DNA of 64,000 bases from Streptomyces sp. NBC_01788. GTDB lineage: Bacteria > Actinomycetota > Actinomycetes > Streptomycetales > Streptomycetaceae. The notes beneath the pieces were generated by a model. That model worked only from the letters and a program-made list of their open reading frames with translations. It made no database searches and was not told the DNA's origin. Positions 18,921 through 37,091 of this stretch are shown piece by piece (the stretch's first letter is position 1; each line of letters opens with the position of its first letter). The position numbers and the translations under genes were made by a program. The stretch is from positions 186,001-250,000 of the forward strand of contig NZ_CP109090.1 in the NCBI RefSeq assembly GCF_035917575.1, written 5' to 3'.

Positions 18921-19154
18921 AGCCACGTGCTGTTCGTCGACCGGTGGGAGTGGCTGATCCCGCTGGTCAGCAGCTACGGCCCGGACGTCATCGTCACCGA
19001 ACCAGAAGAGCTGCGCACGGCGATAGCCGGCCAGCTGCGCCGCACCCTGGCCGTCTACGACACCGCCGCGCCTCCGGGCCCAGCGCCGCCGGACGGACTC
19101 CCCGACGACGACTCCCGCCTGAGATCCACCCACGGCCGCCACCCAGGAGCATGA
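18921..19154 (+). pseudogene. WYL-type regulator, C-terminal remnant
   Basis: Directly after the IS5 element the frame reads SHVLFVDRWEWLIPLVSSYG and PDVIVTEPEELRTAIAGQLRRTLAVYD, which resembles the C-terminal extension of WYL-domain transcription factors. The stop lies one base before the GTG of the DNA-glycosylase-like gene, so the two were probably co-transcribed. The N-terminal HTH and WYL core are not in the window. Confidence 0.5.
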
Positions 19155-19155
19155 C

Positions 19156-20136: not shown

Positions 20137-20395
20137 CCTGCCCCCGCCACCGACCCGGCAGCGGCCCGACCGACGCTGCCGTCACAGGCATGCGTCCACG
20201 GCCGCAAGGACAAGTCCACGAACGGGTGACACGCCGCGTTCGAGTGCATCGTCCCCGCCCCCGGGCGCGGCCCGGCGCCCACTACCCACCAATAGAACAT
20301 TCGTCCAATATCTGCCCCCGACCAAGCCGTTACGGACCCCCACGGGGGCGTTCTTAGAGCACCAGTACCCCTCACGCGCCCAGATGGAGGACGCC
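20137..20395. other. intergenic region, likely promoter of the micro-ORF/Nudix operon
   Basis: This is 259 bases without convincing coding sequence. A short AT-richer patch (ccaatagaacattcgtccaa, about 20288-20307) is the most promoter-like stretch, about 90 bases ahead of the first micro-ORF. No clear -10/-35 pair or strong terminator was identified. Confidence 0.4.
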
Positions 20396-20539
20396 ATGAA
20401 TCCCGTACTCGCCCTTGCGCATCAGCCTCTCGGATTCGAACAGCGGCGGCCCTCGACTACTCCTCTCGCCCGCCACGCACAGCGGGTTGACGACGTCGCC
20501 CACCGCTCAGCACGACCGGATACGAGGTGGACCGCATGA
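20396..20539 (+). CDS. micro-ORF 1, 47 aa, first gene of the operon
   Basis: The ATG is preceded by GGAGG five bases upstream, the strongest Shine-Dalgarno in this part of the window. The product starts MNPVLALAHQPLGFEQRRP and ends in ARPDTRWTA. It is basic, has no signal peptide, Cys or membrane segment, and its Thr/Ser are clustered in STTPLARHA. Its stop overlaps the ATG of the next micro-ORF (ATGA), which in turn overlaps the ABC transporter start. Position and size suit a leader or modifiable precursor peptide, but the function is unknown. Confidence 0.6.
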   Translation: MNPVLALAHQPLGFEQRRPSTTPLARHAQRVDDVAHRSARPDTRWTA

Positions 20540-20697
20540 GCGGGCCCACCCATGCAGCGGCGTCCCGCCACGGCGGGACGCAGACGCGTCGGCACGCCCC
20601 TTCGTCGCTGTCGCCCGCCACCCACGACGGTGGCTGCCGGGCGCTCAGCCAGCCTGTCCCGGCAGCACGGAACGCGGTCACGGGGAGCCGATCATGA
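20536..20697 (+). CDS. micro-ORF 2, 53 aa, coupled to the ABC transporter
   Basis: Starts inside the stop codon of micro-ORF 1 and ends inside the start codon of the ABC transporter (ATGA at both ends). It encodes MSGPTHAAASRHGGTQTRRH and ends NAVTGSRS, with one Cys (GGCR). Composition is arginine-, alanine- and serine-rich without recognised domains. The two exact 4-base overlaps favour real translation; the alternative is a purely coupling ORF whose product does not matter. Confidence 0.45.
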   Translation: MSGPTHAAASRHGGTQTRRHAPSSLSPATHDGGCRALSQPVPAARNAVTGSRS

Positions 20698-22280
20698 CCG
20701 ATCCGTTGCGCCCGGCCGCACCGAGCGCCCGATCCGTACCGCACGCACGTACCGAGCCCCTGCCGCTCCCTCCGGCATCTGCCCCGCCCTCGCCCGAAGG
20801 CGCGGAGCTTGGCGACGAACTCAAGGATGCTTACTGGTCGACCTGGGATGGTGAGGCCTCCCGCACCAGCATGTGGAAGATCTTCGCCAAGCTCCCCGCG
20901 ATCATCCGCCGTGTGCTGGGGATGGCATGGCGCGCCGACGCACGGGCCACCTCGGCCGTGATCGTCCTGCAGCTGGGTTCGGCGGCGATGGCGGCGTTCG
21001 GGCTCCTGGCCTCGATCGGCGTCCTGCAAGCCCTCTTCGCCCAGGGCGCCACCCCAGACCGGATCCGCGCCGCGTTCCCGTCCCTGGCTCTGGTGGCCGG
21101 GCTGCTGATGTTCCGTGCCGTGCTCGATGCCGGGGTCGCCTTGTATCAGGCCCGGCTTACACCGAAGATCCGCCGCATTGTCGAGATGGATTTCCTTCGC
21201 CTGGCGGCCCATGTGCGGCTTGAGGCCGTTGACGACGCGAACTGGGCGGATGACTCCAACCGCGCCAACGACCGGGGGCTGTACTACGCGCGCCAGTCCA
21301 TCACCCAGATCATGGAACTCGCGTCCGCGCTCCTCGGCCTCGTCGGTGCCGCCTCTGTTCTGACCCTGCTTCACCCCCTTCTTCTGCCGCTGCTTCTCGC
21401 CTCGGTGATTCCGCAGGGGCTCGCCTCGGTGCGCTCCGCACGCATGCGGTTCCTCAGCCAGGTCCGCTACAGCACCCTCCAGCGGCGCGTGCGGCTGTTC
21501 ACCTGGCTGCTGCTGGACCGGGACGCTGCCGCGGAGCTGCGCTCCTCGACCGCGCAGCCGGCGTTGCTGGGTGAGCACGAGCGCATCGCCCGGCGGATCG
21601 AGGAGGAGGACACCGGGCTGGGGCGGGCCGAGGCGCGCACGGCACTGTTCGGCCGAGCAGTCGGCGGTGTGGCCACCGGCCTGACCTACGCCGCGCTCGC
21701 CTGGATGCCGATCGTGGGCTGGCTGCCGCTGGCTTCCGGCGGCGGCGCCGTTCTGGCGATCCGGGCCAGCCAGGGCACCCTGACCCGGATCGTCCTCGCG
21801 ACGCACTACGTGTACGAGCATGCCCTGTGGGTGTCGGACCTGTACACCTTCCTGGAGAAGTGCCGCACGTTGCTCCCACGCCGCACCGGGCTCGCCGCAC
21901 CCGGCCAGGTCAAGACGATCAACATCGAGAACGTCGCCTACACCTACCCCGACGGGAAGAGGCCCGCGCTGAACGGCGTGTCCCTGGAACTGATCGCAGG
22001 CTCCACCGTCGCTTTTGTGGGGGCGAACGGCTCGGGCAAGTCCACGATGTCCAAACTGATCGCCGGGTTGTATGAGCCGACGGCCGGCAGCATCACCTGG
22101 GACGGCACCGACGTGTTGACGATGGACGCCGAAAACGTGCAGGCCCAGGTAGCCATGGTCCTCCAGGACCCAGTGGAGTGGCCGCTCTCGGCCCTCGCGA
22201 ACATCACCATCTCCACCGGGACGATCACGCAGGCCGATCCGGAGCGGGCACACGAGGCCGCGACGGCGTCCGGTGCTGAC
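20694..22280 (+). pseudogene. ABC exporter (fused permease-ATPase), 3' end deleted
   Basis: The ATG at 20694 is preceded by GGGGAG and overlaps micro-ORF 2. The product has a 70-residue N-terminal tail, an exporter-type membrane domain (about 75-430, several hydrophobic helices such as LLHPLLLPLLLASVIP) and the start of an ATPase domain: YTYPDGKRPALNGVSLEL, Walker A VGANGSGKST (about 443) and Q-loop MVLQDPVEWP. After RAHEAATASGAD homology stops, and the LSGGQ, Walker B and H-loop (about 170 residues) are missing; the frame runs on to 22409 in unrelated sequence. A deletion joining it to the next gene is likely, so export by this protein is probably lost. Confidence 0.75.
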
Positions 22281-22297
22281 CGGAGCTGGGCCGCATC

Positions 22298-22594
22298 GTG
22301 CTCGACCCGCGCACGGTTCTCGCTGCCCCCAACTGGCCCGCGGGCATGGCCGCAGCCGTCGCTGCCTACCGGGAGGCCAACCCGGCCATGTCGACGGAAG
22401 ACCTGCTGACGGTGCCACGGGTAGCGGCCGACTATCTGGCCTGCTCGACATATCCCCTATCCGAGCCGCTCGACGACCCGTCCGCGGTCACCTCTCAACT
22501 GGAGGCGTACGGGCGGGACCGGCATCAGGCGCAGCGTGTGCTGTGGGAGCGCCTGACGGAAGCCGAGGAGTTGCTCCATGACCTCCTCCACTGA
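22298..22594 (+). CDS. hypothetical protein, 98 aa, possibly 5' truncated
   Basis: From a GTG the frame gives LDPRTVLAAPNWPAGMAAAV ... LTVPRVAADYLACSTYPL ... RVLWERLTEAEELLHDLLH, a soluble helical protein. Its 3' end overlaps the MFS start by 17 bases. I do not recognise the family. Because the preceding ABC gene lost its 3' part at this junction, the true N-terminus could be missing too; an in-frame stop lies at 22277. Confidence 0.5.
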   Translation: MLDPRTVLAAPNWPAGMAAAVAAYREANPAMSTEDLLTVPRVAADYLACSTYPLSEPLDDPSAVTSQLEAYGRDRHQAQRVLWERLTEAEELLHDLLH

Positions 22595-23960
22595 CCCCAC
22601 CTTCGCCGGCGCGCGGACGTCGCTGTGGCGACACCGCGACTTCCGGCGCTACCTGACCGGGCAGGCAGCCAGTGTGACCGGCAACTCGATCAGCACCATG
22701 GTGATCCCCGTGCTGGCGGTGCTCGAACTGGACGCGACCACCGCCGAGGTCGCCTGGTTGACGTTCCTGGGCCAACTGCCTCCCGCACTGCTGGCCTTGC
22801 ACGCCGGGGCCCTCGCCGACCGCCACTCCAAGCGGAAGCAGATGATCACCGGCGACCTGGTCAGCGCCGCGGCGCTGGCCAGTGTGCCGGTGGCGGCCGC
22901 GCTGGGCCGGCTGTCCCTGACCCAGCTGATGGCGGTCGCGGCCGTGCAGGGTGCGGCGGGGGTGCTGCACGATGCCGCCGCGATCAGTCTTCTGCCCGGC
23001 CTGGTCGACCGGTCCCTGCTCCAGCGGAGCAACAGCCGCATCGGCGGGCTCTTCGCCGTCGCCGCCACCGCGGGCAGCAACCTCGGCGCCGCCCTGACCG
23101 CGCTCCTCGGCCCGGCCCGAGCGCTTCTCGGGGACGTCCTGTCCTACCTCGTCAGCGCCTGGTGCACCGCCCGCATCCAAGCCCTCGAAAGCCCCCGGCC
23201 GGCAGCGGAAGAGCGCCGGCTGCACACCGAGATCGGTGAGGGCCTGCGCTATGTGCATGGCGACCACCGGCTGCGCACCCTGACCCTCGTCAACGCCACG
23301 ACGTCGTTCGCGCTGGCGCTCCTCAATACCTTATGGGCGCTGTACTTGCTCCGGTCCCTCGCCCTGGGCCCGACCGCGTTCGGCGTGGTCCTGGGTACCG
23401 GAGCCCTGGGCGCGGCGGCGGGTGCTCTGGCCGCCCCGTCGCTCGCGGCGCGGTACGGGCCCGGGCCGATGATGCTCGCCGCGCTCGCGATCACTCCGCT
23501 CACCCAGGTCCCCCTGCTCCTCGCCTCCTCGGGCCTGGTCTGGCAGTTCGCCATCGGTGCCGCCCTGTTCCTTCAGCTGGCTTGCGCCGGGGCGGCGGGG
23601 ACGACCCAGCGCACCATTCGCCAGGTCGTCACCGCCGACGGCATGCAGGCCCGGATGCAGGCCGTGAGTACCTGGCTCACCTCCGGTGCCCGCCCGGTGG
23701 CCGCGCTCCTCGCCGGCGGGCTCGGCACGTGGATCGGGCTGCGCCCCACCCTGGTTGCCGGTACCTGCCTCCTCGTCGTCCCCCTCGTGGTTCTCTACCG
23801 CTCCCCGCTGCGCAGCCTGCTGGACATGCCCGGCTCACCCGCCGTCGCTTCTCCTTCAGCCGAGGCCATCCCACCTCCGACGCCGTCAGGGCCGATCGTC
23901 CCGAATCCCGCAGTCGCCGTGGATGTGCGGCACGACCGCTCTTCGGAAGGTGGCCCGTGA
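22578..23960 (+). CDS. MFS exporter (MFS_3 / macrolide-efflux type)
   Basis: 460 residues with about 12 hydrophobic segments. The N-terminus (LWRHRDFRRYLTGQAASVTGNSIS) and the loop ALADRHSKRKQMI are typical of the MefA/enterobactin-exporter MFS_3 family. A 60-residue Pro/Ser-rich tail is cytosolic. It probably exports the operon's product or gives self-resistance. Start and end overlap both neighbours (17 bases and GTGA). Confidence 0.85.
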   Translation: MTSSTDPTFAGARTSLWRHRDFRRYLTGQAASVTGNSISTMVIPVLAVLELDATTAEVAWLTFLGQLPPALLALHAGALADRHSKRKQMITGDLVSAAALASVPVAAALGRLSLTQLMAVAAVQGAAGVLHDAAAISLLPGLVDRSLLQRSNSRIGGLFAVAATAGSNLGAALTALLGPARALLGDVLSYLVSAWCTARIQALESPRPAAEERRLHTEIGEGLRYVHGDHRLRTLTLVNATTSFALALLNTLWALYLLRSLALGPTAFGVVLGTGALGAAAGALAAPSLAARYGPGPMMLAALAITPLTQVPLLLASSGLVWQFAIGAALFLQLACAGAAGTTQRTIRQVVTADGMQARMQAVSTWLTSGARPVAALLAGGLGTWIGLRPTLVAGTCLLVVPLVVLYRSPLRSLLDMPGSPAVASPSAEAIPPPTPSGPIVPNPAVAVDVRHDRSSEGGP

Positions 23961-25567
23961 GCACGAACCCGGACACGACCCCTGGCCCGGAGCCGTCATC
24001 GGCGGCCCCGCCGTCGGGCGCGCCCCTCCTGCTCAGCACCTACTCCCTGCCCTTCAACGTCCGAGGTGATCACGTGCCGCCCTCCCGCTCTCATATCCGC
24101 GCGACCGTCGAGGCCTATCTCAGCCGGCATGCCGAGGAACGGGACGCTCTGGAGGGGTTGCTGGCTGTCCTGGACGGCACCGGGGAGCCGTCGAGCCGGG
24201 CCACGCTGCCCAGTCACGTCACCTGCAGCGCGGTGGTCATCGACCGCGACCGTCAGGTGCTCCACATCGGACATCGGGTGACAGGGCTGCTTCTCGCTCC
24301 AGGCGGCCACGTTGAGGCGGGTGACCGTACGCTCCTGGCCGCGGCCGTGCGGGAGGTGTGCGAAGAGGCCGGGCTGCGTCCCGGCGACCTGTGTCTGACT
24401 CCGCAGTTCCTCGAAGAGCCGATCGACGTGGACGTCCATGACATCGACGCCAATGCGGCCAAAGGCGAGCCCGCTCACCAGCACTTCGACTTCCGCTTCG
24501 CGTTCTACCTCACCGCCGAGCAACCGCCCGCGCTCGCTCTCCAGGACGAGGAAGTCGCCGGGGCCCAGTGGCTCCCGTACGCCGATGTGCGGTCCCCGAC
24601 GCTACGGGCCAAGCTCCTGGCCGCCGAGGCGGACGGCCTCGATGGGCGCCCGGAGCCCGTCAACGCGAGCGCCTTGATCCATGACGGGGCCGGTCGGTAT
24701 CTCCTTCATCTTCGGGATGACCGGGAGGGCATCTGGGAGCCCTGGGTGCTGGCCCTCCTCGGTGGCGGCCATACGAGGGACGAGGACGATGCCTGTCTTG
24801 AGGCGACGCTGCGCCGCGAGCTTGCCGAGGAGGTGCCGGGCCTGGAGCCCACCGATCTGGTGCCGTTCGCCGTGGAGGCGGCGACGATCGTCGACGGCCT
24901 GGCGGTGCCCATCAGCGTCTACGCCGGGCGCTGGAGCGGTGATGCCGCGGCGGTGGAACTCCGGGAGGGAGTCCTGCTGACGTGGTGCACCGTGGACATG
25001 CTCGACCGGCTGCGCCTGAGTCCCGGGCTCGGGGAGCTGATCCGGCGCCACGCGGCCGAGCACCCCGCGGCGAAGGAACTGCCGGACGGCACCGGCCCGC
25101 TGGCCGACGAGGCTCCGCCGGGAACCGAGCTGCACATCGTCGGCGTTCACCTCCATCTCCAGGACGACCAGGGCCGCATCCTCCTCGGCCTGCGCCACCC
25201 GGACTCCACGTATGCGCCGGACACCTGGCACTTCCTGGCCGGCCACTGCGAGCGGGAAACGGCGATCGACTGCCTGTTTCGGGAAGCAAAGGAGGAAGCG
25301 GGCCTCACCATCGCGCCCGAGGACGTCGATCTCGTCCACACGGTGCACCACGTCGACTCCCCCGATGCCCGGCCGAGGATCGCGCTCGTCTTCCAGGCCC
25401 GCTCCTGGACCGGCGACCCGGAGGTCCTGGAGCCCGATCGGTGCGTGGAGTGGCGGTGGTGGAGGCCGCAGAACCTGCCGGAAGCAGTCGTGCCGTACAC
25501 CCGCCGGGCGATCGACGGGATCCTTGGGGGGCGTCCGTACTCCGAGCAGGGCTGGGGCGAACGATGA
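23957..25567 (+). CDS. triple-Nudix-domain protein
   Basis: 536 residues; GTG start overlaps the MFS stop (GTGA), GGAAGG upstream. Three Nudix domains lie in tandem. Box 1 (about 116-138) is GGHVEAGD...REVCEEAGL with Asp for the first Glu. Box 2 (about 268-291) is GGGHTRDEDD...RRELAEEVPGL. Box 3 (about 428-448) is AGHCERETAIDCLFREAKEEAGL, two residues short in the first loop. RExxEE cores are kept in all three, so metal binding is possible, though the altered boxes may favour binding over hydrolysis. Nudix enzymes cleave nucleoside diphosphates linked to other groups. A single protein with three such domains is unusual. Confidence 0.82.
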   Translation: MSTNPDTTPGPEPSSAAPPSGAPLLLSTYSLPFNVRGDHVPPSRSHIRATVEAYLSRHAEERDALEGLLAVLDGTGEPSSRATLPSHVTCSAVVIDRDRQVLHIGHRVTGLLLAPGGHVEAGDRTLLAAAVREVCEEAGLRPGDLCLTPQFLEEPIDVDVHDIDANAAKGEPAHQHFDFRFAFYLTAEQPPALALQDEEVAGAQWLPYADVRSPTLRAKLLAAEADGLDGRPEPVNASALIHDGAGRYLLHLRDDREGIWEPWVLALLGGGHTRDEDDACLEATLRRELAEEVPGLEPTDLVPFAVEAATIVDGLAVPISVYAGRWSGDAAAVELREGVLLTWCTVDMLDRLRLSPGLGELIRRHAAEHPAAKELPDGTGPLADEAPPGTELHIVGVHLHLQDDQGRILLGLRHPDSTYAPDTWHFLAGHCERETAIDCLFREAKEEAGLTIAPEDVDLVHTVHHVDSPDARPRIALVFQARSWTGDPEVLEPDRCVEWRWWRPQNLPEAVVPYTRRAIDGILGGRPYSEQGWGER

Positions 25568-26853
25568 GCGCTCTGGACACCTGTCCCGCCGGTGAACAGG
25601 CGCCGGAGCGGACCGCCGGCCCGATCGGCGGGGGCGCGCCGACGGATGCGGAAGCGGATCCGGCAGCCGCGCGGGCGGTGATGGTCGCCCGGCTCGAGGA
25701 GGAAGGGTCTCTGGGGCCGGGCCCGGTCCGCGACGCTCTCCTCGCGCTGCCCCGCGAACTGCTGATGCCGCAGGCGTACGTACGGCGCAGCGGGCCGGGA
25801 AAGGAGTTGCCGCGGTGGGATCTGCTGGACTGGTCGGCGCCGCTGGACCGCCCCGAGATGCTCGGGCTGCTGTACGGCGGGGCCAGTGTGCTCGTCCAGC
25901 ACGATGGGGAGCCGCTGCTGGGCCGGGCGCGCGGGACGCGGGCGGGGGCGTCGATCACGTCGATGTCGACGGTGATGGGTTTGACCGTCGAGCTGCTGGA
26001 GGAGCTGGATCTGCGCCCGGGTCTGCGGGTGCTGGACGTCGGAACGGGCGCGGGGGTGACCGCCGCGGTGGCCTGCCAGGTCTGCGGCGACCAGGGGGTG
26101 GCCACCCTCGATCGGGACCGGCACCTCACCGCCGCGGCCGCCGCCCGCCTGGCCGATCTCGGCTTCCGGCCGCAGGTGGTGTGCGGTTCGGGCGAACAGG
26201 GCGTCCCAGGCCGGGAGTTCGACCGTATCTTCGTGTCGTACACGGTGGAGTGCGTACCGACGGCCCTGGTCGAGCAACTCGCGCCAGGCGGCAAACTGCT
26301 GGCGCACGTGACCAGCGCGTCCCCGTCGTGGCCCGGCCTCGCCGTCGTCCGGCGCACCTCAGACGGGCATGTTACGGCGGAGCTGCGGGCCGTGGAGTTC
26401 GCCCACCGTGCCGGGCACGGCATGGCGCGGATCTGGCTCGGCGAGGAGTTCCGGCAGCGCATGGCCGCCGAGCCCGGTGCGTGGACCCAGCGGAGCAAGC
26501 TGGCGCCGCCCGCGGACAGCGACCGCGGATTCTGGCTGGCGGCCGACCATCTCCTCGGAGGTCTGGTGCGGGACTTCGGCGCTGAGCACCTGGCGATCGG
26601 CGCACCCAGCTGCGGATCCTGGATGCGCGCGGAGCCGGTGGGCCACCGGCGCTGGAACGTCGCCGCCCAAGGGCCGCGGGACATCTGGAAAGAGATCCAG
26701 GACCTCGCCGACCGGTGGCGGGCCGCACGCTCCCCCGACCGCTACCGCCTCTACTTCGACGCGGACGGCGGGCAGCGCGCCGCGTCCGAGTGCGGACGCC
26801 TGTCCTGGCACCTGCCCGCCCCCCACCCGCTCGATGAGGGAGCCACCTCGTGA
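25564..26853 (+). CDS. PIMT-like (protein-L-isoaspartate O-methyltransferase family) enzyme
   Basis: 429 residues, ATGA overlap with the triple-Nudix gene. The methyltransferase core begins about residue 85. GASITSMSTVMGLTVELLEEL precedes the SAM motif LRVLDVGTGAGVTAAVACQV (about 150-170), followed by FDRIFVSYTVECVPTALVEQLAPGGKLL, the layout of PCMT/PIMT enzymes. A C-terminal 140-residue extension ends in GRLSWHLPAP. PIMT homologues act on peptide Asp/isoAsp carboxylates in several RiPP pathways; here the substrate is unknown. Confidence 0.78.
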   Translation: MSALDTCPAGEQAPERTAGPIGGGAPTDAEADPAAARAVMVARLEEEGSLGPGPVRDALLALPRELLMPQAYVRRSGPGKELPRWDLLDWSAPLDRPEMLGLLYGGASVLVQHDGEPLLGRARGTRAGASITSMSTVMGLTVELLEELDLRPGLRVLDVGTGAGVTAAVACQVCGDQGVATLDRDRHLTAAAAARLADLGFRPQVVCGSGEQGVPGREFDRIFVSYTVECVPTALVEQLAPGGKLLAHVTSASPSWPGLAVVRRTSDGHVTAELRAVEFAHRAGHGMARIWLGEEFRQRMAAEPGAWTQRSKLAPPADSDRGFWLAADHLLGGLVRDFGAEHLAIGAPSCGSWMRAEPVGHRRWNVAAQGPRDIWKEIQDLADRWRAARSPDRYRLYFDADGGQRAASECGRLSWHLPAPHPLDEGATS

Positions 26854-27719
26854 CCTACCCCGACGGGCCCCTTCCGGGCCTTGCACCGGAGCAGGAGACC
26901 ATGTTCGAGGGCGCGGCGTTGACCTACGCCCGCCACCGCCCCGGCCTGCCGGACGCGGCGGTGCGCCTGCTCGCCGACACGCTGCGGGGCCGGCCGTCCC
27001 CGGTCCTGCTCGACCTGGGCACCGGAACCGGGCAGGTGCCCTTCGCGCTCCTGTCCGCCGGCGGTGACCTGACGCACATCGAAGCGGTCGACGTCAGCCC
27101 GCAGATGCTGCATCAGGCCAGGCAAGCCCTCACTCCCGTGCTCGGCCGCTGCACCCTCACCCTGGTCCACGCGGCGGCCGACGCCTACGAGCCGCTCGCG
27201 ACGCTGCCGGGCGAACCGGATTCCGGCCCGGACCTGATCACCTTCTGCCGGTCCTACCACTGGATGAACGGTGAGGCGGTCCTGGAGATGGCCGACCGGG
27301 TCGCCACACCGGGCGCCGCAGTAGCGATCATGGGCGACGGGAGCCTGTGGACCCACGACGCCGACTGGACCCGTGCGCTGCGCGAATTGATCCAGCGCTA
27401 CCTGGGCGCCGAGCGCCGGGCGGGCGCCCACCGTTCCTACGCCGAGCCCAGCCGCTCGTACGAAGAGGACCTCGCCGCCTCGGCGTTCAACGACGTCACC
27501 GAACACCTCTTCCCCGTGACCCGCACCTGGGCGCCGCACGAGGTGCTCGGCTACCTGCACACCACATCCTTCGCCGCTCCTGAGCTCTTCACAGAGCGGC
27601 ACCAGGCGTTCGAGGACGAGGCCCTCGCCCTTCTCCACACGCACGCGGTGGACGGGGCTCTGGTCGAGGAAGCGACGTTCAGGGTTCTGCTCGCCCGGCG
27701 TCCGGAGGGAGCGCGGTGA
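26850..27719 (+). CDS. class I SAM-dependent methyltransferase
   Basis: 289 residues; GTG start overlapping the PIMT-like gene (GTGA). The SAM site is VLLDLGTGTGQVPFALL (about 51-67), with acidic motif IEAVDVSPQML and the typical late motif LITFCRSYHWMN, as in UbiE/Methyltransf_11/25 enzymes that methylate small molecules. The C-terminus (TSFAAPELFTERHQAFEDE) probably forms the substrate lid. Intact, same operon. Confidence 0.85.
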   Translation: MTYPDGPLPGLAPEQETMFEGAALTYARHRPGLPDAAVRLLADTLRGRPSPVLLDLGTGTGQVPFALLSAGGDLTHIEAVDVSPQMLHQARQALTPVLGRCTLTLVHAAADAYEPLATLPGEPDSGPDLITFCRSYHWMNGEAVLEMADRVATPGAAVAIMGDGSLWTHDADWTRALRELIQRYLGAERRAGAHRSYAEPSRSYEEDLAASAFNDVTEHLFPVTRTWAPHEVLGYLHTTSFAAPELFTERHQAFEDEALALLHTHAVDGALVEEATFRVLLARRPEGAR

Positions 27720-29158
27720 GCGGCGGGCAGCGGCACACCGAGCCGGTGGACGTCCACCTGATCCTGCGCCGGGAGACCGCCGACGGGCCACAGGTGCTGC
27801 TGTCCCGGCGGGCCGGGCAGGTGTACGCCGCCGGCCTGTGGCACCTGCCGTCGGGGCATCTGGACGGTCCGCACGAGGACGTGGTCACCGCCCTGATCCG
27901 CGAGGCGCGGGAGGAGACCGGTGTCGTCATCGACCCGGCCGACGTGCGGGCCGCCGCGACCGTGCACCACCGCAGCCCCGGAGGCGCCTCTCGTACCGGG
28001 CTCTTCTTCGAGGTCCAGCGGTGGAAGGGCGAGCCCGAGATCGCCGAGCCGGACGTCTGCGACGCGATGGACTGGGCGCCCCTTCACGCCCTGCCCGCCC
28101 AGATGGTGGCGTACTGCCGTGCGGGCCTGGACGCTTACAGCGCCGGCGCGCGGCTCGCCGTGCACTTCCAACTGCCCGGCGACACCATCGCCTTCGCCCC
28201 CTGCGCTGACCGGCTGCGCATCGTGCCGGACGTGACCGGCCAGGCGTCCGGCGCCCGTCCCGACGCTGCGGTCGTGGAGTTCGCGGAGCGGGCAGTCGGC
28301 CGGATCGCGCAGTGGACGGATACGTCGTGGGCGCGCGAGGAGAGCCGGGTGTGGCGGGTCCACGGCGTCCAGGGCGGCACCTGGTACGTGAAGGTCCACC
28401 ACAACGAGCGATTCCACGGCAGGGAAGTGCGGGGGCTACGAACGTGGGCGCGGGAGCTGGGGGCGGCCGCGCCGCGGCCGGTCGCCGCCGACGAGACCCT
28501 GCGGGCGGTGGTCCTCACCGCGGTGCCGGGCCGCCCCCTGCACGGCGCTGTTCTGGCACCGGAGCGGGAGAGGGCGGTCTTCCAACGGATCGGCGCGCTG
28601 GCCCGCCGCATCCACCATGCCTCTCCCCCACGGCCCGCTCCTGCCGGCAGCGGCCCGGCCGTGGCCAAGACCGACCGGCACCTGGCCGGGGCGCGGTCTC
28701 ATCTGCTCCCGGGCGATGAGGAGTTCGTCCGCGAGCTCGTCCGGCAGGCCAAGGACCTGCCACCGCTGGAGTGGGTGGAGACCCACGGCGATTTCCAGCT
28801 CCGCAACATCCTCTCCACCCCTGACGCCGCCGACGAGACGGACGACCTTGAGGTCGTCGTGGCGGTGATCGACCTCGAGCGCAGTGAGCCGGGACCGGCC
28901 GTACGGGATCTGGTCCGCCTGTCCGACGCCTGGGCCGGCCGCCCGGACCTGTTCGAGGCGTTTCTGGCCGGGTACGGCAGGCCCCTGACCGCCGCCGAAC
29001 AGGCCCGCCTCGTCATCGACGCAGCACTCGATTCCGTGAGCGGGATCGCCTACGGCGCCGCCCACGGTGACCCCGAGCTGGTCGAACGCGGGCGGACCCT
29101 GGCCCGCCTGCGCGCCGAGCACCGCGCAGCCCTCTCACCGACAGGAGATGCCCCGTGA
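27716..29158 (+). CDS. Nudix - aminoglycoside-phosphotransferase-like fusion
   Basis: 480 residues. The N-terminal Nudix domain has box SGHLDGPHEDVVTALIREAR followed by EETGV (about 45-69). From about residue 185 there is a kinase-like APH domain: WYVKVHHNERF (ATP Lys), the catalytic loop THGDFQLRNIL (about 355-366) and VIDLERSE (metal Asp, about 384). APH-fold kinases phosphorylate hydroxyls of small molecules, often as self-resistance or biosynthetic enzymes. The fusion to Nudix suggests the two steps act on one metabolite. Overlaps both neighbours by GTGA. Confidence 0.83.
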   Translation: MSGGQRHTEPVDVHLILRRETADGPQVLLSRRAGQVYAAGLWHLPSGHLDGPHEDVVTALIREAREETGVVIDPADVRAAATVHHRSPGGASRTGLFFEVQRWKGEPEIAEPDVCDAMDWAPLHALPAQMVAYCRAGLDAYSAGARLAVHFQLPGDTIAFAPCADRLRIVPDVTGQASGARPDAAVVEFAERAVGRIAQWTDTSWAREESRVWRVHGVQGGTWYVKVHHNERFHGREVRGLRTWARELGAAAPRPVAADETLRAVVLTAVPGRPLHGAVLAPERERAVFQRIGALARRIHHASPPRPAPAGSGPAVAKTDRHLAGARSHLLPGDEEFVRELVRQAKDLPPLEWVETHGDFQLRNILSTPDAADETDDLEVVVAVIDLERSEPGPAVRDLVRLSDAWAGRPDLFEAFLAGYGRPLTAAEQARLVIDAALDSVSGIAYGAAHGDPELVERGRTLARLRAEHRAALSPTGDAP

Positions 29159-30195
29159 ACGCCGACACGGCCCCCACTACCGCGGCCGAGCCGCGCGACG
29201 CCGCCGGACGGCCGCGGGTCCGCGCGGCAACCCCCGCTGACGCCGAAGCCATCACCCGGATGCGCTCCGAACATGTCCTGTCCGCACCGTTCACCGAGGA
29301 CTGGGTCCGGCAGTGCACGGACGAGCTGGCACCACGGCTCACGCCGGAGGGAGACGCCTGGGCCTTCGTCGTCGACGCCCCGGACGGCACGATGGCCGCC
29401 TGCGCCCTCGGCCTGATCCACCCCGTGCTCCCGGCCCCGGCCTACCCCCGAGACCGGGCCGCCCGTGTGCAGCTGGTCGCCACGCACCTGGACCACCGGC
29501 GCCGCGATTACGCCCGGGCCGTCGTCTCCACACTCCTCGACCGCCTGGCCGACGTCGAGGACGTCACGCTGTTCGAGCTGCACACCAGCCCGGAGGCCGC
29601 TCCCCTTTACCGGGAGCTCGGCTTCAGCGGCAGCCCGGCACTGATGCGGATGACCCGCCACCGCCAGCTCGATGGTGCCGTGCCCGGTGCGCAGCCGGAC
29701 TCGACGTGGGTGCCGCCGCAGCAGTACGCCGACTCACTGCCCCAGGCGGCCGCGTACGTGTGCCTCTACGTCACCGACGAGGACGACCGGCCGCTCCAGC
29801 TCCACTCCGTCTACTCCCCTGGCCACCCTTGGCACATGATCGGCGGCGCGATGGATCTGGGCGAGCGGCCCTGGGACGCGGTGGTGCGCGAGTGCCGGGA
29901 AGAGACCGGCATGACCGCCGCGGGCCCGCCCCGGCTGCTTGCCACGGTGTACGGGCAGCCCCGGGAGAGGCGTCCATACAGCACTCTGCAGCTGATCTTC
30001 GACGGCGGTCGCCTCACCGCTGAACAGATCCGGGGCATCACCCTTAATCCGCGCGAGCACGACGAGGCCCGCGTCCTGCCCTTGGCCGAGTGGGAGGCCT
30101 TGATGCCGGCCCGCGATTTCGTGCGGTTGCGCGCCGTGGAGGAGGCCCGCCGCACCGGCGTGGCCGCATACGTCGACACCTGGGGGAACGCATGA
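29155..30195 (+). CDS. GNAT acetyltransferase - Nudix fusion
   Basis: 346 residues. The GNAT domain (about 20-170) has RAATPADAEAITRMRSEHV at the start, a divergent acyl-CoA loop (THLDHRRRDYARAVVSTLL) and LYRELGFSGS near its end. The Nudix domain (about 190-340) has box IGGAMDLGERPWDAVVRECR followed by EETGM (about 228-252), close to consensus, with HMIGG before it. It probably acylates and hydrolyses intermediates of the same pathway. Intact, GTGA/ATGA overlaps on both sides. Confidence 0.83.
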   Translation: MNADTAPTTAAEPRDAAGRPRVRAATPADAEAITRMRSEHVLSAPFTEDWVRQCTDELAPRLTPEGDAWAFVVDAPDGTMAACALGLIHPVLPAPAYPRDRAARVQLVATHLDHRRRDYARAVVSTLLDRLADVEDVTLFELHTSPEAAPLYRELGFSGSPALMRMTRHRQLDGAVPGAQPDSTWVPPQQYADSLPQAAAYVCLYVTDEDDRPLQLHSVYSPGHPWHMIGGAMDLGERPWDAVVRECREETGMTAAGPPRLLATVYGQPRERRPYSTLQLIFDGGRLTAEQIRGITLNPREHDEARVLPLAEWEALMPARDFVRLRAVEEARRTGVAAYVDTWGNA

Positions 30196-30848
30196 GCGCC
30201 AGCAGCATCGTCTTGATGTCCGACCGGAGAGTCGCCACGATCCCCGTCCAAGAGCGCGGCGAGGCCCTCCTCGACGCCCGCGTGCACGGCCTGAGGGTCG
30301 ACGACCGCAAACAGGACGCTGCGGGCGCCTGGGCCCACGTACGTCAGGGCGTGCTCACGCGGCTCCAGCAGGCGCAATCGCTGCTCCCCGGCGGTGTGCA
30401 GCTGCTGTTCATCGAGGGCTACCGGCCCCCATCCCTGCAGCGCCGGTACTTCGAGGAGTACTCCGACGAGCTCGCGCGCGCCCATCCGGACTGGCAGGCC
30501 GCCGCGATCCGGGAGACCGCCAGCCGCTTCGTATCGCCTCCGGAGATCGCGCCGCACTCCGCCGGCGCAGCCGTCGACGTGACCCTGATCGACCACCAGG
30601 GCCGCGAACTGGACATGGGTACCCGGGTCAATGCGTCGCCGGAGCAATCTTCCGGCGCCTGCTACATCGACGCCCCCGACCTGAGCGCCCGGGCCCGCTC
30701 GAACCGGGCCACCCTGGGCGGCGCGCTGTCCACCGCGGGCTTGATCAACTACGGCATGGAGTGGTGGCACTGGTCGTTCGGCGACCGGTACTGGGCGCTG
30801 CAGACCCAGCAGCCGGCCGCCCTCTACGGCCCCGTCGAACTGCCCTGA
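30192..30848 (+). CDS. VanX-like D-Ala-D-Ala dipeptidase (peptidase M15D)
   Basis: 218 residues from the ATG overlapping the previous stop. All signature residues of the VanX group are present: R78 in EGYRPPSLQ, zinc ligands H122 and D129 in PHSAGAAVD, catalytic E190 and zinc ligand H193 in GMEWWHWSFGDRYW. No signal peptide is present, so it acts in the cytosol. VanX enzymes hydrolyse D-Ala-D-Ala; homologues in biosynthetic clusters hydrolyse other dipeptides. Without vanH or vanA homologues nearby, a role in processing the operon's own product is as likely as glycopeptide resistance. Confidence 0.85.
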   Translation: MSASSIVLMSDRRVATIPVQERGEALLDARVHGLRVDDRKQDAAGAWAHVRQGVLTRLQQAQSLLPGGVQLLFIEGYRPPSLQRRYFEEYSDELARAHPDWQAAAIRETASRFVSPPEIAPHSAGAAVDVTLIDHQGRELDMGTRVNASPEQSSGACYIDAPDLSARARSNRATLGGALSTAGLINYGMEWWHWSFGDRYWALQTQQPAALYGPVELP

Positions 30849-30877
30849 CACCGCCTTTCACGAACGAGGAGCGACCT

Positions 30878-33193
30878 GTGGGATACACCCGGACTGACTG
30901 GTCCGAGCACTACAACGAGGGGCGAGGCTTCCGGCAGCTCGGTGACCAGGAGAAGGGCCTACTCGTCGAGCACGCCCCGGCCCCCGATGGCGGCCGCGCG
31001 CTCGACATCGGCTGTGGCACGGGCGAGTTGTCCGTCTACCTCATCTCGCTCGGCTACACCGTCGACGGAGCGGACTTCGCCGAAGGCACGCTCGAGCGGG
31101 CTCGCGCGGAGCACGCCGAGGTAGAGGGGGTGCGCTGGCTGAGCCTGGATGTCGAGCTCGGCGACCTGGCCGACCTCGCCGAGGACGGCTACGACCTGAT
31201 CGTCCTACGGCTGTCCATCGCGTTCATCCGCGATCGCGCACGTGTCCTTCGCGCTCTGGCCGCGCGGCTGCGCGAGGGCGGGGCGCTCGTCATCATCACG
31301 CCGATCGTGGAGAACACCCCGGAAGAGCGGCGCCACATCGCCCTGGACGAGAAGGAACTCGCCTCGCTCACCGACGGGTTCGAGCACGTCGAGCAGTTCG
31401 ACGCGGAGGGCCTGGCGGTGCTGGTCCTGCGCGGACCGGCCGGATCGTTCAGCGCGGAGGAGAAGGGGCGGCCCGAGCCGCAGGCCGTCTTCGGTGCCGC
31501 AGTGGTGGTCACCGACGCCTTCGGCCGGGTCCTGCTGGGCCGCTCCACCCGGGGCATGTGGGAGCTGCCCGGCGGCCGTATCGAGACTGGCGAGGCCGCA
31601 TCAGCGGCCGCCGCGCGGGAGCTGACCGAGGAGACCGGGCTGACGGCACGCGTGGACGACGCTCACGTCATCACCGTGCTGCACGACGATCGCCTGGACG
31701 TACGCCGCGTCACCGCCGTGGTCCGCGTCTCCCGCTGGGGCGGTGAACTCGCTCTGCCCGAGCCACACCGCTTCGTACGCTGGGAGTTCCACGACCTGAA
31801 CACCCTGGCGACCCTCGGGAAGATCTTCGCGCCCAGCGCACAGGCCCTGACCGCAGTGTGGCCCGGGGTGCTGGCGGGCCTCCCGCCTGTCCACTCCTAC
31901 CCGTGCTCCCCCGCCGTCCCGCCGGTGCCCGGAGAGCCGGCCGAGGCGGTCCGGCTGCGCGAGCGGATGGCGGACATCGTGATCAGCAAGGGCTGGGCGC
32001 CCTCGTCGCGGGTCCAAGCCGCGTTGCGCGAGGTGCCCCGGCACCGGTTCGTCCCCGAGACCCGGCTGGAGACGGCCTACCACGACGACCTCGCCGTGGT
32101 GACGGTCCGGGAGTCACCCCAGACCGCTCTCAGCTCCGTCTCCGCGACCTGGCTGCAGGCCGACATGATCGAGCAACTCCGGCTGGAGCCGGGGATGACC
32201 GTGCTGGAGGTCGGCTCCGGCGGATACGACGCGGAACTCCTGGCGCACGTCCTGGGAGAGCGCGGCCGGGTGGTGACTGTGGACGTCGACCCGTACGTGG
32301 TGCACCGAACACAACGGCTGTGCGCCGAGGCCGGCAGCGGCCGGGTCACCGCCGTCCTCGGCGACGGCGGACTCGGCGCGCCGGGACACGTCCCGGCCGA
32401 CGGGTTCGACGGGATCGTGATCACGCACAACGCGTCCGACATCGCACCCGCATGGCGAGAGCAGCTCGCCGAAGGGGCCCGGCTGGTCGTGCCGCTGGAG
32501 ATGGGCGGCTACACCCGCTCCCTCACCCTGGTCCGGCGCGGCGACGTGCTGCACTGCGAGCACTGGACGTACTGCGGGTTCGTACGAGACCGCGGCGCTG
32601 CCGCCCGTACTGCCCCCGCCGTCCCTCTGGCCGACGGCATGGTCACGGTGCGGTGGGAGGATGGGACGCCCTGCGACACCGCTGGTCTCGACGAGGCTCT
32701 GCGCGGGCCCCGGCACGAGCGCTCCACGGGCCTCGTCGTGCAGGGGATCTTCAACTTCGAGACCTTGCAGGTCTATGCCGCGACAACCCTGGCAGGGTTC
32801 TGCCGCCTGTCCGCGCCGGAGGGATCCCAGCTCGTGGAGCAGCAGGACGCGGCCGCGATCCTGGCGGACGGCTCGCTCGCCTACCTGACCTACCGGAAGG
32901 TCAAGGACGCCCCGGAGCCGGCCGACCGCATGACGGAGTTCTTCATCCACGCCTACGGCCCAGTAGCCGAAGAGGTGGCGGAGCGCTTCGCGGAGTGCGT
33001 GCGCGTCTGGGACCGCGAGGTGCGCAAGAGCGGCTACCCGCCGATGACCGTCCACCCGGCCGCAACGCCCGACGACCAGTTGCCGCCCGGCGACGTGCTC
33101 GACAAGCCCAGCGCACGGCTTGTCCTCCAATGGCCGGACCGGACCCCCGCCGACGCGCTGGGCCTCTCGACCGCAGGGGGACAGCGTGCCTGA
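30878..33193 (+). CDS. methyltransferase - Nudix - FxLD-type methyltransferase triple fusion
   Basis: About 771 residues; GTG with GAGGA seven bases upstream. Domain 1 (1-190) is a class I methyltransferase (RALDIGCGTGELSVYLISLG). Domain 2 (about 200-345) is Nudix with a near-perfect box (GGRIETGEAASAAAARELTE, then ETGL, about 230-254). Domain 3 (about 360-770) resembles the PIMT-related 'methyltransferase, FxLD system' family: TALSSVSATWLQADM, TVLEVGSGGYDAELLAHVLG, ASDIAPAWREQLAEGARLVV, and a C-terminus with PPGDVLDKPSARLVLQWP. Members of that family accompany FxLD lanthipeptide clusters. No lanthipeptide dehydratase or cyclase is present here. The three-domain joining is unusual and the frame is uninterrupted. 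Confidence 0.82.
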   Translation: MGYTRTDWSEHYNEGRGFRQLGDQEKGLLVEHAPAPDGGRALDIGCGTGELSVYLISLGYTVDGADFAEGTLERARAEHAEVEGVRWLSLDVELGDLADLAEDGYDLIVLRLSIAFIRDRARVLRALAARLREGGALVIITPIVENTPEERRHIALDEKELASLTDGFEHVEQFDAEGLAVLVLRGPAGSFSAEEKGRPEPQAVFGAAVVVTDAFGRVLLGRSTRGMWELPGGRIETGEAASAAAARELTEETGLTARVDDAHVITVLHDDRLDVRRVTAVVRVSRWGGELALPEPHRFVRWEFHDLNTLATLGKIFAPSAQALTAVWPGVLAGLPPVHSYPCSPAVPPVPGEPAEAVRLRERMADIVISKGWAPSSRVQAALREVPRHRFVPETRLETAYHDDLAVVTVRESPQTALSSVSATWLQADMIEQLRLEPGMTVLEVGSGGYDAELLAHVLGERGRVVTVDVDPYVVHRTQRLCAEAGSGRVTAVLGDGGLGAPGHVPADGFDGIVITHNASDIAPAWREQLAEGARLVVPLEMGGYTRSLTLVRRGDVLHCEHWTYCGFVRDRGAAARTAPAVPLADGMVTVRWEDGTPCDTAGLDEALRGPRHERSTGLVVQGIFNFETLQVYAATTLAGFCRLSAPEGSQLVEQQDAAAILADGSLAYLTYRKVKDAPEPADRMTEFFIHAYGPVAEEVAERFAECVRVWDREVRKSGYPPMTVHPAATPDDQLPPGDVLDKPSARLVLQWPDRTPADALGLSTAGGQRA

Positions 33194-34000
33194 CTCCGAC
33201 GAGCTGGCCCCCGAGAAGGCGGCGACCTCCACGATGCCGTCCCTGCTCGGCGTGTTCGCCCATCCTGACGACGAGAGCCTCCTCGCCGGCGGTGTCCTTG
33301 CCCAGCACGCTGCTGCGCACGCGCGCACCGCTGTCGTCACCATGACGTGGGCGCCCGACAGCCCGCGGGCTCCCGAACTCGCCGACGCCTTGCGAGCGCT
33401 CGGCGCGGGCGCAACCCGCAGGCGGCTCCCGGCCGTCCCCGGCTCGTCGACGCACCGCTCGACGAGGTGGTCGCCGCCTTGGTCCAGCAGATCCGCTCGT
33501 TCCGCCCCGACATCGTGGTCACGCACGACGCCCTGGGCCAGCTGACCGGTCACCCGGACCACCGCCGTACCCACCAGGCCGCTCTCCTCGCCGTTCAGGA
33601 CGCGGGGCTCGCGCATCTTCACCGCAAGGCCGGTGAGCCTTGGCAACCGCGCGCCGTGTACTGCGCCACGCACCCCGAGTCCGGTATCGGCGAGCTCGGG
33701 CCGCTTCTGGAGGCCGTCGGCAAAGCCGTGCTCGCGGTGCCGGACGCATACGCCACCACCACCGTTGACGTCACCCCGTGGCTGGAACAGAAGTGGGCAG
33801 CGGTCCTCGCGCACCGCGGGGAAGTCGCCCGCGAACGGCCACTGCCCGGCATCCTCGCCCGCCTGCCCGAGGAGAGCCGGCGCGGCATCATCGCGACCGA
33901 GTACTTCACCCGGCTCGCGACCGGGCCACTCCCCATCGGCTCACTGCCTGACGACGGTCAACCGCCTCACTCTTCCCCGGGCTCGACCGGCCCCTTCTGA
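33186..34000 (+). pseudogene. PIG-L family deacetylase, frameshifted with internal loss
   Basis: The GTG at 33186 overlaps the preceding gene by eight bases. The first part has the zinc motif GVFAHPDDESLLAGG. After ADALRALGAG (near 33410) the frame is lost and about 20 residues usual in this family are absent. The rest (APGRPRLVDAPLDEVV ... FRPDIVVTHDALGQ ... GHPDHRRTH) continues in another frame to the stop at 34000. PIG-L enzymes remove N-acetyl groups from sugars or modified small molecules. Either a deletion inactivated it or the assembly is wrong here. Confidence 0.75.
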
Positions 34001-34011
34001 CCTGGAGAATC

Positions 34012-34310
34012 ATGACGACCACATCCGTTCCCGGCGAGCTGCCCGGCAGCGCCATGACCGACGAGACGTACGGCGCTCTGCGCGCCTCGGCCGCCCTGTG
34101 GGTCGGGACGTCCGTGCTGATCACCAACCAGTTCGGGCAGGTCCTGGTCCAGCACGTCGACTATCTCGAGACCTGCCTCCTGCCAGGCGGTGCCGTCGAC
34201 AAGGGCGAGTCCCCCGCTCACGCCGCCGCCCGTGAACTGGGCGAGGAGCTCGGGATCACCGCTGCCCCCAACCAGGGCCTGGCCAAGCCGAATCCGGAAC
34301 AGGTATCAGT
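34012..34310 (+). pseudogene. Nudix hydrolase, 3' truncated
   Basis: ATG with GGAG six bases upstream, eleven bases after the PIG-L stop, so still the same operon. The Nudix domain starts SVLITNQFGQVLVQHVD and keeps the box LPGGAVDKGESPAHAAAREL followed by GEELGI, but homology ends after ITAAPNQGLAKP. The frame then continues as antisense of the minus-strand gene at 34336-34701. About half of the Nudix fold is missing. Confidence 0.7.
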
Positions 34311-34335
34311 CAGCGCGCTGGACTGCGGTTGGCGA

Positions 34336-34701
34336 TCATCGTGGTACCTGTTGCCCAGCATCGGTCAGGATCAAGGTGATGCGGCCCAGCCACTCGCCGT
34401 CCTCCGGATACTCCCAGTTTCCGGCGTCCGCCAGGAGAGCAGGGAGGCTTTCGCGCGGAAGAAAAGGGCCTGGTTGGAAGCCGGCGGTTCCATCGGGAGA
34501 GCTCCATCGAACGAGGCGACAAACGCGAATCCATCCCCTGTCGACGAGAGACAACAGGATCGGGGCGAGATCAGAAGCCGGACCGGAGGCAAGTGGATCG
34601 GGCAGGTCACCCCAGACTCCGGGCAAGATGTCGACCTCGGTGGCATTGCTCACGAAAGCGCGCTCTGCGGAGGACAACTCGTCCGGGGCGGGGTAAGTCA
34701 T
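34336..34701 (-). CDS. hypothetical protein, 121 aa
   Basis: MTYPAPDELSSAERAFVSNA starts a soluble acidic protein containing DILPGVWGDLPDPLASGPAS and ending RITLILTDAGQQVPR. The frame is open, host-like in codon use and of a size common among Streptomyces hypothetical proteins. It converges on the truncated Nudix gene, so its 3' end marks one side of a rearrangement. I do not recognise a function. Only a weak Shine-Dalgarno precedes the ATG. Confidence 0.55.
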   Translation of the reverse strand: MTYPAPDELSSAERAFVSNATEVDILPGVWGDLPDPLASGPASDLAPILLSLVDRGWIRVCRLVRWSSPDGTAGFQPGPFLPRESLPALLADAGNWEYPEDGEWLGRITLILTDAGQQVPR

Positions 34702-34897: not shown

Positions 34898-35320
34898 TCA
34901 GATGAGGATTTCGTCGCGGTCGTCGCCTGCGGTGAGTCGGAGGGCGCCCGGCCACCGGCCGACTTCCTTCCAGCCAACCCGCCCGTAGAAGTCCTCCAGG
35001 CCAACCTCGCTGCGAGCGGCGAGGGGCAGTTGTTCCAGGCCCATCTCTTCCTTGGCGACCCTGCGCACTTCATGCATGAGGGCACGGCCGACCCCACGGC
35101 CGCGTATGGCGGTGCGGGTCTGAACATGGTGGAGAGTGCCCAGCAGGGCGAGCGTCCGGCGACCCATAGCCCGCTCGACCAAGGGGAGTTGGCGCATCTG
35201 TGGATGGCCGCGATCGCGGGCGAGGCTGGCGCTGGACGGGCCGTCCAGGTACTCGGCGCGCGCACCGTCGGTCTTGTCGGCCCTGATGGCCGGACGGCGG
35301 CCCTCTGGGCGTGTGTTTGA
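34898..35320 (-). pseudogene. GNAT acetyltransferase, C-terminal part
   Basis: The minus strand encodes HHVQTRTAIRGRGVGRALMH (acetyl-CoA loop RGRGVG) and LEDFYGRVGWKEVGRWPGAL to a stop at 34898-34900, the second half of a GNAT domain. The upstream ARAEYLDGPSSASLARDRG segment may belong to it. No convincing start or N-terminal beta-strands were found, and the open frame further upstream crosses antisense of the flavo-oxidase gene. It is probably truncated. Confidence 0.5.
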
Positions 35321-35464
35321 GCTGTTTGGCGGTGCGTCTCTCGTCTTTTCGTGTGGTGGGCTTGGCGGGTGGGGAGCCGGCGGGGACGGCACCGGTCGAC
35401 GATCAACGAACTGGTCGATGGGTTCGCAGGTACGCCTGCGACCGCTGCATGAGAGTAGGTCACT

Positions 35465-37057: not shown

Positions 37058-37091
37058 GCCGAAATGGCTAGGTTTCCTATCGGATGGGGTT

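Follow-up and report, generated by a model that had tools for sequence, protein, structure and literature searches.

Gene clusters for puromycin-type aminonucleosides combine Nudix, GNAT and methyltransferase enzymes with an MFS exporter. Among the ribosomally synthesized and post-translationally modified peptides (RiPPs), PIMT homologs are described as enzymes that aspartimidylate the product (PMC10787088 and PMC13001092, in their accessible portions), while self-immunity to microcin C draws on GNAT, MccF and HIT enzymes (PMC7157772 and PMC9239234, likewise in their accessible portions). Here, we analyze an operon of Nudix fusions, methyltransferases, a VanX-like peptidase and exporters in a 64,000-nucleotide stretch (hereinafter the window; positions 186001–250000) of the 8.27-Mb single-contig genome of Streptomyces sp. 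NBC_01788, where it lies near one contig end. The original prediction for this DNA was of a pathway, behind two micro-ORFs (ORF, open reading frame), that makes and exports a small peptide- or nucleotide-linked metabolite and fits no standard cluster class. The operon is real and conserved in Streptomyces relatives, and no description of it was found in the literature searched, including the accessible portions of PMC8939145, PMC9380542 and PMC9513070; the placement outside the standard classes is supported, whereas a working pathway in the window is not.

Gene order and composition of the cassette

The conserved unit, which we term the cassette, was traced through 44 loci that carry a 20-base motif (GTTCTTAGAGCACCAGTACC) in their 5′ region: 37 places with 0–1 mismatch and 7 of the 19 with two mismatches, these 7 being hand-picked for their resemblance to the set. 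Gene families were recognized at no less than 38% identity and 30% query coverage, with identities including self-matches and the gene calls coming from a codon-score script. The fullest order is ABC, HIT, APH, MFS, triple Nudix, MT1, MT2, Nudix-APH, GNAT-Nudix, M15, FxlM, PIG-L and Nudix. A single order holds in 583 of 597 ordered gene pairs, the reference order itself being derived from the same 44 loci, and the operon is therefore beyond chance; the neighborhood search that had been proposed as a check thus recovered fused tailoring enzymes and exporters in one recurrent arrangement. Across the 44 loci the ABC family was recognized in 40, triple-Nudix in 18, Nudix-APH in 16, GNAT-Nudix in 15, FxlM in 13, MT1 in 12, MT2 in 11, MFS and M15 in 10 each, and PIG-L in 8.

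Among 20 neighborhoods, long runs in the same order are found in L051, L052, L053, L056 and L068, with only parts in the others. The order recurs in the annotated plasmids NZ_CP109456, NC_023284 and NZ_CP109401, from the MFS gene onward in NZ_CP107737, from the HIT gene onward in NC_023283, in Streptomyces mirabilis with one Nudix gene shifted, and in several further named genomes. The complete GNAT-Nudix fusion is present in 12 genomes (our own and 11 others, 52–92% identity); at E ≤ 1e-20 the query had hits in 82 of 295 same-genus genomes, often through the Nudix half only. FxlM has 516 relatives at E ≤ 1e-30; the organism names noticed among the 120 matches listed are Streptomyces, at least 80% of the protein is covered in 23 plasmid records, and no match was found among phage records.

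Domains in the window operon were called with Pfam and NCBIfam, and close relatives of its proteins come from Streptomyces. Its features are as follows (aa, amino acids; SAM, S-adenosylmethionine):

18927..19154, + strand: what remains of a WYL-domain gene (75 C-terminal aa), matching the 341-aa WYL protein of NZ_CP109456 at 99% identity over 75 aa
19156..20136, + strand: HhH-GPD-like (DNA-glycosylase-type) protein directly 5′ of the leader; Pfam HhH-GPD 22.9 bits, below the cut-off of 26.2
20295..20306, no strand: position of the GAAC-N4-GTTC dyad conserved across loci, imperfect in the window (GAACATTCGTCC)
20327..20335, no strand: CCGTTACGG element, conserved columns in the 44 loci
20350..20369, + strand: the 20-base motif, a promoter or 5′ leader block recurring in same-genus genomes
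20396..20539, + strand: micro-ORF 1, putative leader ORF of 47 aa, with an ATGA overlap with the next start
20536..20697, + strand: micro-ORF 2, 53 aa, seen otherwise only in four relatives
20694..22409, + strand: ABC half-exporter, truncated (no LSGG or Walker B), with a chimeric tail after about 22283, the junction in the alignment
22298..22594, + strand: tail of a deleted APH-like kinase, 94% identical to the APH C-terminus of L052
22578..23960, + strand: MFS exporter (PF05977/PF07690)
23957..25567, + strand: triple-Nudix protein, 536 aa, three PF00293 stretches
25564..26853, + strand: MT1, PIMT-type methyltransferase, TIGR04188-like, 429 aa; 177.6 bits, under the cut-off of 380
26850..27719, + strand: MT2, class I SAM-dependent methyltransferase by domain profiles, 289 aa
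27716..29158, + strand: Nudix-APH kinase fusion, 480 aa (PF00293 and PF01636), HGD motif present
29155..30195, + strand: GNAT-Nudix fusion by domain profiles, 346 aa, Nudix box matched
30192..30848, + strand: M15/VanX-like dipeptidase, 218 aa (PF01427; PDB 1r44, E 8.6e-7), EWWH kept
30878..33193, + strand: MT3/FxlM (RefSeq fxlM), three-domain methyltransferase-Nudix-PIMT/FxLD fusion; TIGR04364 369.6 bits, above the cut-off of 320
33186..34000, + strand: PIG-L deacetylase gene, frameshifted
34012..34284, + strand: 5′ fragment of a Nudix gene whose counterpart in NZ_CP109456 encodes 364 aa; 93% identical over 91 aa, the right broken edge

Most of the inventory first reported for the operon is borne out: 13 reading frames lie on one strand at 20396–34310, micro-ORFs and broken genes included; eight junctions are four-base ATGA/GTGA overlaps; seven Nudix domains are spread over five proteins at 24215–34428, out of 39 Nudix hits in the whole genome; two of the four methyltransferase domains (MT1 and MT3) are of the PIMT type; and the APH, GNAT, M15/VanX-like and MFS domains are present by Pfam. 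A strict Nudix-box pattern is matched in GNAT-Nudix and FxlM and unmatched in triple-Nudix and Nudix-APH, so that Nudix activity in the latter two is predicted at the level of the domain. A second multi-Nudix locus of the same genome (L018, G000:C1:1001708-1005399) lies beside an apparent ABC fragment.

The window copy itself is a degraded relic of the cassette, and the prediction of a working pathway is not supported. Window positions 18926–22283 and 22282–34284 align to 190723–187346 and 185674–173627 of NZ_CP109456; between the two blocks, 1.67 kb of the plasmid is absent, and with it the end of the ABC gene, HIT, and the greater part of APH. The predicted ABC exporter is therefore present as a gene, but one that runs into the APH kinase tail and whose protein has neither the LSGG nor the Walker B motif, both of which are found in the relative L052; likewise, the PIG-L domain is there, but its gene is frameshifted. 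The left block begins within the WYL gene and the right block stops within the Nudix gene at 34284. Of the upstream set of NZ_CP109456, all that survives in the window is the terminal part of the WYL gene, which marks the left broken edge of the system, and the HhH-GPD-like gene (91% to its NZ_CP109456 homolog); judging from this alignment, both belong to the system. The same-species genome G497 has the right flank (window 34900–37063) at 99% identity, but neither the leader motif nor a good counterpart of the left flank, and the island is therefore probably accessory. The right flank holds a gene for a berberine-bridge-type oxidase.

The leader and its micro-ORFs

At up to one mismatch the 20-base motif is found at 37 listed places, in 37 of 392 same-genus genomes, and in 22 of 293 genomes of the order (20 of which represent other genera), where all the matches are from the own genus and the reversed control has no match among those listed. 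At two mismatches it is found in 52 of the 392 genomes, with the reversed control in similar or larger number, and within our own genome both the motif and its reversed control match once. The class 1 leader as a query matched only 6 of 12 genomes with FxlM relatives, in keeping with exchange of the leader. A perfect GAAC-N4-GTTC dyad is present ahead of the motif in 27 of the 44 loci (25 at −56/−57, one at −58 and one at −46), as compared to 0.05% of shuffled sequences. Control by LexA as part of the SOS response was considered and set aside: the outer C before GAAC is found in 0 of the 27 dyads, as against the tCGAAC-N4-GNNCGa box given for S. venezuelae in the accessible portion of PMC9380542. 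A looser search of our genome for that box was uninformative, with 26 places and 14 for the reversed control.

Micro-ORF 1 could be parsed in 43 of the 44 loci (in the remaining one, L107, the frame runs on) and has 19–51 codons, mostly encoding 39–51 aa. In all 43, its stop overlaps the next start, as ATGA in 34 and GTGA in 9, and in 39 loci the frame overlapping that stop exceeds 120 aa. Over 72 pairs of similar length and nucleotide identity above 0.68, the pooled ratio of nonsynonymous to synonymous differences per site (pN/pS) is 0.86, as against 0.95 and 0.88 in the shifted frames. Codons 2–16 have a pN of 0.17 and a pS of 0.32, and the middle part 0.35 and 0.28, respectively. Single pairs range from 0.5 to 3.1, versus 0.12–0.26 for the ABC gene (17 of 20 chosen pairs computed), which is under purifying selection. 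Asp32 is kept in at least 90% of the 38 aligned sequences. The invariant Glu is encoded by GAA in 42 of 43, which suggests that this element is conserved as nucleotides. In a second leader class of nine loci, TTCGAA lies in another frame in five, in the same frame in one, and is absent from that place in three. With a near-neutral protein and a key element conserved at the nucleotide level, micro-ORF 1 is most plausibly a translated regulatory leader and not a RiPP precursor or peptide substrate; its translation would be coupled to that of the exporter gene.

The second leader class is marked by AAGGGTCsGTGCA, in many cases followed at some distance by TTCGAA and GTTGA (e.g., L258 on the reverse strand at about 6330, L259 at 1180, L060 and L066), and several of its members precede the same ABC family. 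A long-range pairing of CCAGUACC with the Shine–Dalgarno region GGAUACGAGG before the next (exporter) gene is possible at window positions 20350–20369 and about 20515–20530, and is statistically weak. A riboswitch was rejected, the consensus fold amounting to −1.03 kcal/mol with two doubly changed pairs; an Rfam scan of the leader returned no hit at threshold and one sub-threshold hit to an unrelated family. Both predicted micro-ORFs are present in the window. Micro-ORF 2 otherwise intervenes only in L051, L052 and two plasmids, and in none of the other parsed loci, and was dropped as a conserved part on account of these five loci.

Upstream gene sets and comparison with described systems

In the relatives the cassette stands behind several different gene sets. 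In NZ_CP109456 (a plasmid of Streptomyces sp. NBC_01456), whose set comes closest to the window, the leader is preceded by genes for two radical SAM proteins, an S66 peptidase, a class II aminoacyl-tRNA synthetase (aaRS)-like protein, a small protein, and SDR, WYL and HhH-GPD-like proteins; as far as its fetched stretch extends, NZ_CP108096 has this set too (radical SAM, S66, aaRS, SDR, WYL and HhH). The best solved relatives of the S66 protein are MccF (E 5.5e-36), while the aaRS-like protein aligns to the catalytic core of LysRS only. Downstream of the NZ_CP109456 cluster there are genes of the endonuclease/exonuclease/phosphatase and 2′-5′ RNA ligase families (L260, 1289–2859). A second set has DUF3865, cupin/JmjC, amidinotransferase and desaturase genes facing aaRS-like, TauD and AlkD-like genes; it is found in NC_023284 (pFRL4), NZ_CP074103 (S. 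mirabilis) and, up to the edge of the stretch, L258 (S. anulatus NRRL B-2873), and its "DNA alkylation repair" label is the annotation of one record. This module, conserved, divergently arranged and biosynthetic-looking, was seen at L266 (19835–29286), L265, L290, L298 and L301. A nucleoside-type set lies upstream in NC_023283 (pFRL3) and L313; its genes include folE, phosphoribosyltransferase, thymidylate kinases, radical SAM, DegT and PurC-like (L274, 1–8095, from pFRL3; in L313, three of these genes were tested). HhH-GPD-like or AlkD-like genes or their remnants, never both, lie just 5′ in 14 of the 44 loci.

The class I lanthipeptides of the FxLD type (TIGR04363/TIGR04364) provide another such set. 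Directly before the leader and the long L068 cassette, L276 codes for a LanB-type protein (TIGR03891 domain), LanC-like, FxlM and TPR-like proteins, and an FxLD precursor (46.4 bits against a cut-off of 30); NZ_CP109461 has a similar, partly decayed arrangement with the motif at three mismatches. Overall, the cassette ABC gene together with Nudix or fxlM genes follows LanB/LanC/FxlM/TPR-type genes in L276/L068, L326, L327, L353 and NZ_CP109461. In our own genome, a separate FxLD locus, covered by L275 (G000:C1:1362000-1377000) and L019, has a precursor (55.5 bits) with LanB-type, LanC-like, FxlM and TPR-like genes; Nudix and ABC genes belonging to the cassette families come after it. MT3 of the window matches TIGR04364 over positions 1–394 of 394, above the cut-off, but the same polypeptide also contains another methyltransferase and a Nudix domain. 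The FxLD precursor is absent from the window (the sole TIGR04363 match in this genome is at C1:1371301), and tblastn at E ≤ 1e-12 detected neither LanB nor LanC in the 15 kb upstream of the window leader. The original remark that lanthipeptide synthetase and radical SAM genes are missing is thus correct for the window but not for some relatives, which have radical SAM genes or an FxLD cluster directly 5′.

With the pamtides and imiditides the cassette shares a PIMT-type enzyme with a C-terminal domain and a short ORF nearby with a conserved Asp; it differs in that micro-ORF 1 is near neutral as a protein and in that its enzymes are fused to Nudix domains, a term absent from the main texts of PMC10787088 and PMC13001092. 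No graspetide-type ATP-grasp ligase was found by Pfam in the scanned window operon proteins or among the product names of the annotated relatives. The resemblance to microcin C systems is greatest in NZ_CP109456, which has an MccF-like S66 peptidase, HIT, GNAT and exporters, all of predicted activity; the HIT protein of L052 matches the HIT protein 2oik, and the window keeps only the GNAT among the S66, HIT and GNAT immunity parts. The isoaspartyl-nucleotide payload described in the accessible portion of PMC9239234 would fit with PIMT chemistry. In contrast, the portions of the microcin C literature examined mention nothing that corresponds to the seven Nudix domains, and the cassette HIT keeps three His where, according to the same literature, the MccH clade has Lys. 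No ThiF or MccB gene is present among the product names of the annotated relatives, in which some proteins are "hypothetical" and for which no profile search was run. The likeness to microcin C immunity is one of parts, not of membership.

What the cassette may do

Because relatives set it behind several different gene sets, the cassette may be a portable kit with which small bioactive molecules are finished and exported. Accordingly, we favor, at a probability of roughly one half, a portable cassette for tailoring, self-protection and export of small peptide- or aminoacyl-nucleotide-type products. We infer that the upstream gene set would build an amino-acid, peptide or nucleoside core; the Nudix and HIT enzymes might then cleave phosphoanhydride or phosphoramidate bonds of nucleotide-linked forms, and the PIMT-type enzymes might methylate Asp carboxylates through aspartimide/isoAsp chemistry. 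The GNAT, APH and peptidase proteins would mask or trim a toxic form for self-protection, the ABC and MFS exporters would carry the product out, and micro-ORF 1 would be the translated leader coupled to the exporter gene.

Several observations weigh against this interpretation. No ThiF/MccB-type gene was named in the annotated clusters. In 14 of the 44 motif loci ABC is the sole cassette gene (and one lacks even that), so the exporter can stand alone; several plasmids have FxlM with few cassette genes, and the cassette of NZ_CP108096 ends after HIT. The original prediction had named independent occurrence of the genes as evidence against a pathway: such cases are found, but the order is kept where the genes are present. 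L258 and L259 pair the same HIT-APH genes (80–89%), and L258 also the start of the MFS gene (95%), with a different leader and a 55% identical ABC, so that leader and ABC on the one hand and enzymes on the other are swappable. The linear plasmids are mosaics, and some adjacencies may owe to chance. Among 40 upstream regions (two of them of 4 kb and 12 kb, respectively), none of the modules searched for was recognized in 27; the others comprise five HhH remnants, two partial AlkD or TauD-AlkD, three full second modules, one nucleoside-type, one S66 and one distant LanB-like hit. From the other side, TIGR04363 is matched in 44 of 150 same-genus genomes, and among 40 FxLD precursor loci (part of all such places, some in short stretches, one of 2.6 kb) the ABC type is found in five (one on the opposite strand), cassette-type Nudix in four and both in three; FxLD lanthipeptides are therefore usually without the cassette. 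An FxLD lanthipeptide as the obligatory partner was rejected, since the ABC type is absent from 35 of the 40. As few upstream regions and few FxLD loci pair the two, the cassette and its upstream partners are separable.

DNA glycosylases are known as self-resistance factors. The main rival, which we regard as possible but doubtful, is an inducible detoxification or resistance island, in which the leader, pumps and drug-modifying enzymes act against foreign antibiotics and no product is made. It explains well the loci with exporter and leader alone, the purifying selection on ABC in pairs that include such loci, and the DNA-glycosylase-type neighbors in 14 of the 44; the enzyme set also resembles microcin C immunity as given in the literature portions cited above, and in the PDB the ABC profile is matched best by exporters of the P-glycoprotein type, which is a generic match. 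It fits less well with the description of PIMT/FxLD and TIGR04188 methyltransferases as RiPP-modifying in the accessible literature or with the biosynthetic-type modules (aaRS-like, radical SAM and amidinotransferase) directly 5′ in several loci.

Micro-ORF 1 as the precursor of a pamtide- or imiditide-like RiPP, its Asp being modified by the two PIMT-type enzymes, is improbable. Its size is close to the roughly 45 aa of type I pamtide precursors (PMC10787088, accessible portion), and the invariable overlap with the next start, the retention of Asp32 and the constraint on codons 2–16 are as one would expect of a precursor; but its pooled pN/pS falls barely under those of the shifted frames, its single pairs contrast with the ABC gene, the GAA codon and the frame changes of TTCGAA point to nucleotide-level conservation, and it occurs where no methyltransferase gene was detected. 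That unrelated house-cleaning genes were gathered by chance on plasmids and chromosome arms would agree with the 23 plasmid records and the many partial loci, but is hard to reconcile with the order, overlaps, fusions and leader common to loci whose FxlM proteins are 42–92% identical, and we consider it very improbable. The same holds for an anti-phage defense island: PADLOC matches PDC-S07 (Nudix), mad2 (methyltransferases) and mad3 (ABC), but these matches are to single generic domains, with none at the level of a system. For the integrative elements of Streptomyces, Nudix is mentioned as a means of exclusion (PMC9513070, accessible portion).

The copy in the window is a relic, and the value lies in the cassette family and its changing upstream modules. 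With 516 FxlM relatives the enzyme set is common, and no assigned role for it was found; it gives a setting in which some of the 3653 PIMT-like enzymes that remain unassigned among the 9408 PAMTs of PMC10787088 (accessible portion) could be placed. Through the cassette, a connection of PIMT chemistry with Nudix fusions and microcin C-like immunity can be put to the test; further clusters can readily be sought with the 20-base leader motif, and NZ_CP109456 may hold an intact one suited to expression. Tentatively, and as an idea that we hold to be rather unlikely, unrelated payload modules (FxLD lanthipeptide, two different aaRS-like sets and nucleoside-type sets) might pass chemically different warheads through a shared nucleotide-linked, PIMT-modified, self-protected intermediate before export, with the leader-anchored cassette as a swappable post-assembly kit; if true, this would add a new architectural principle to bacterial specialized metabolism.

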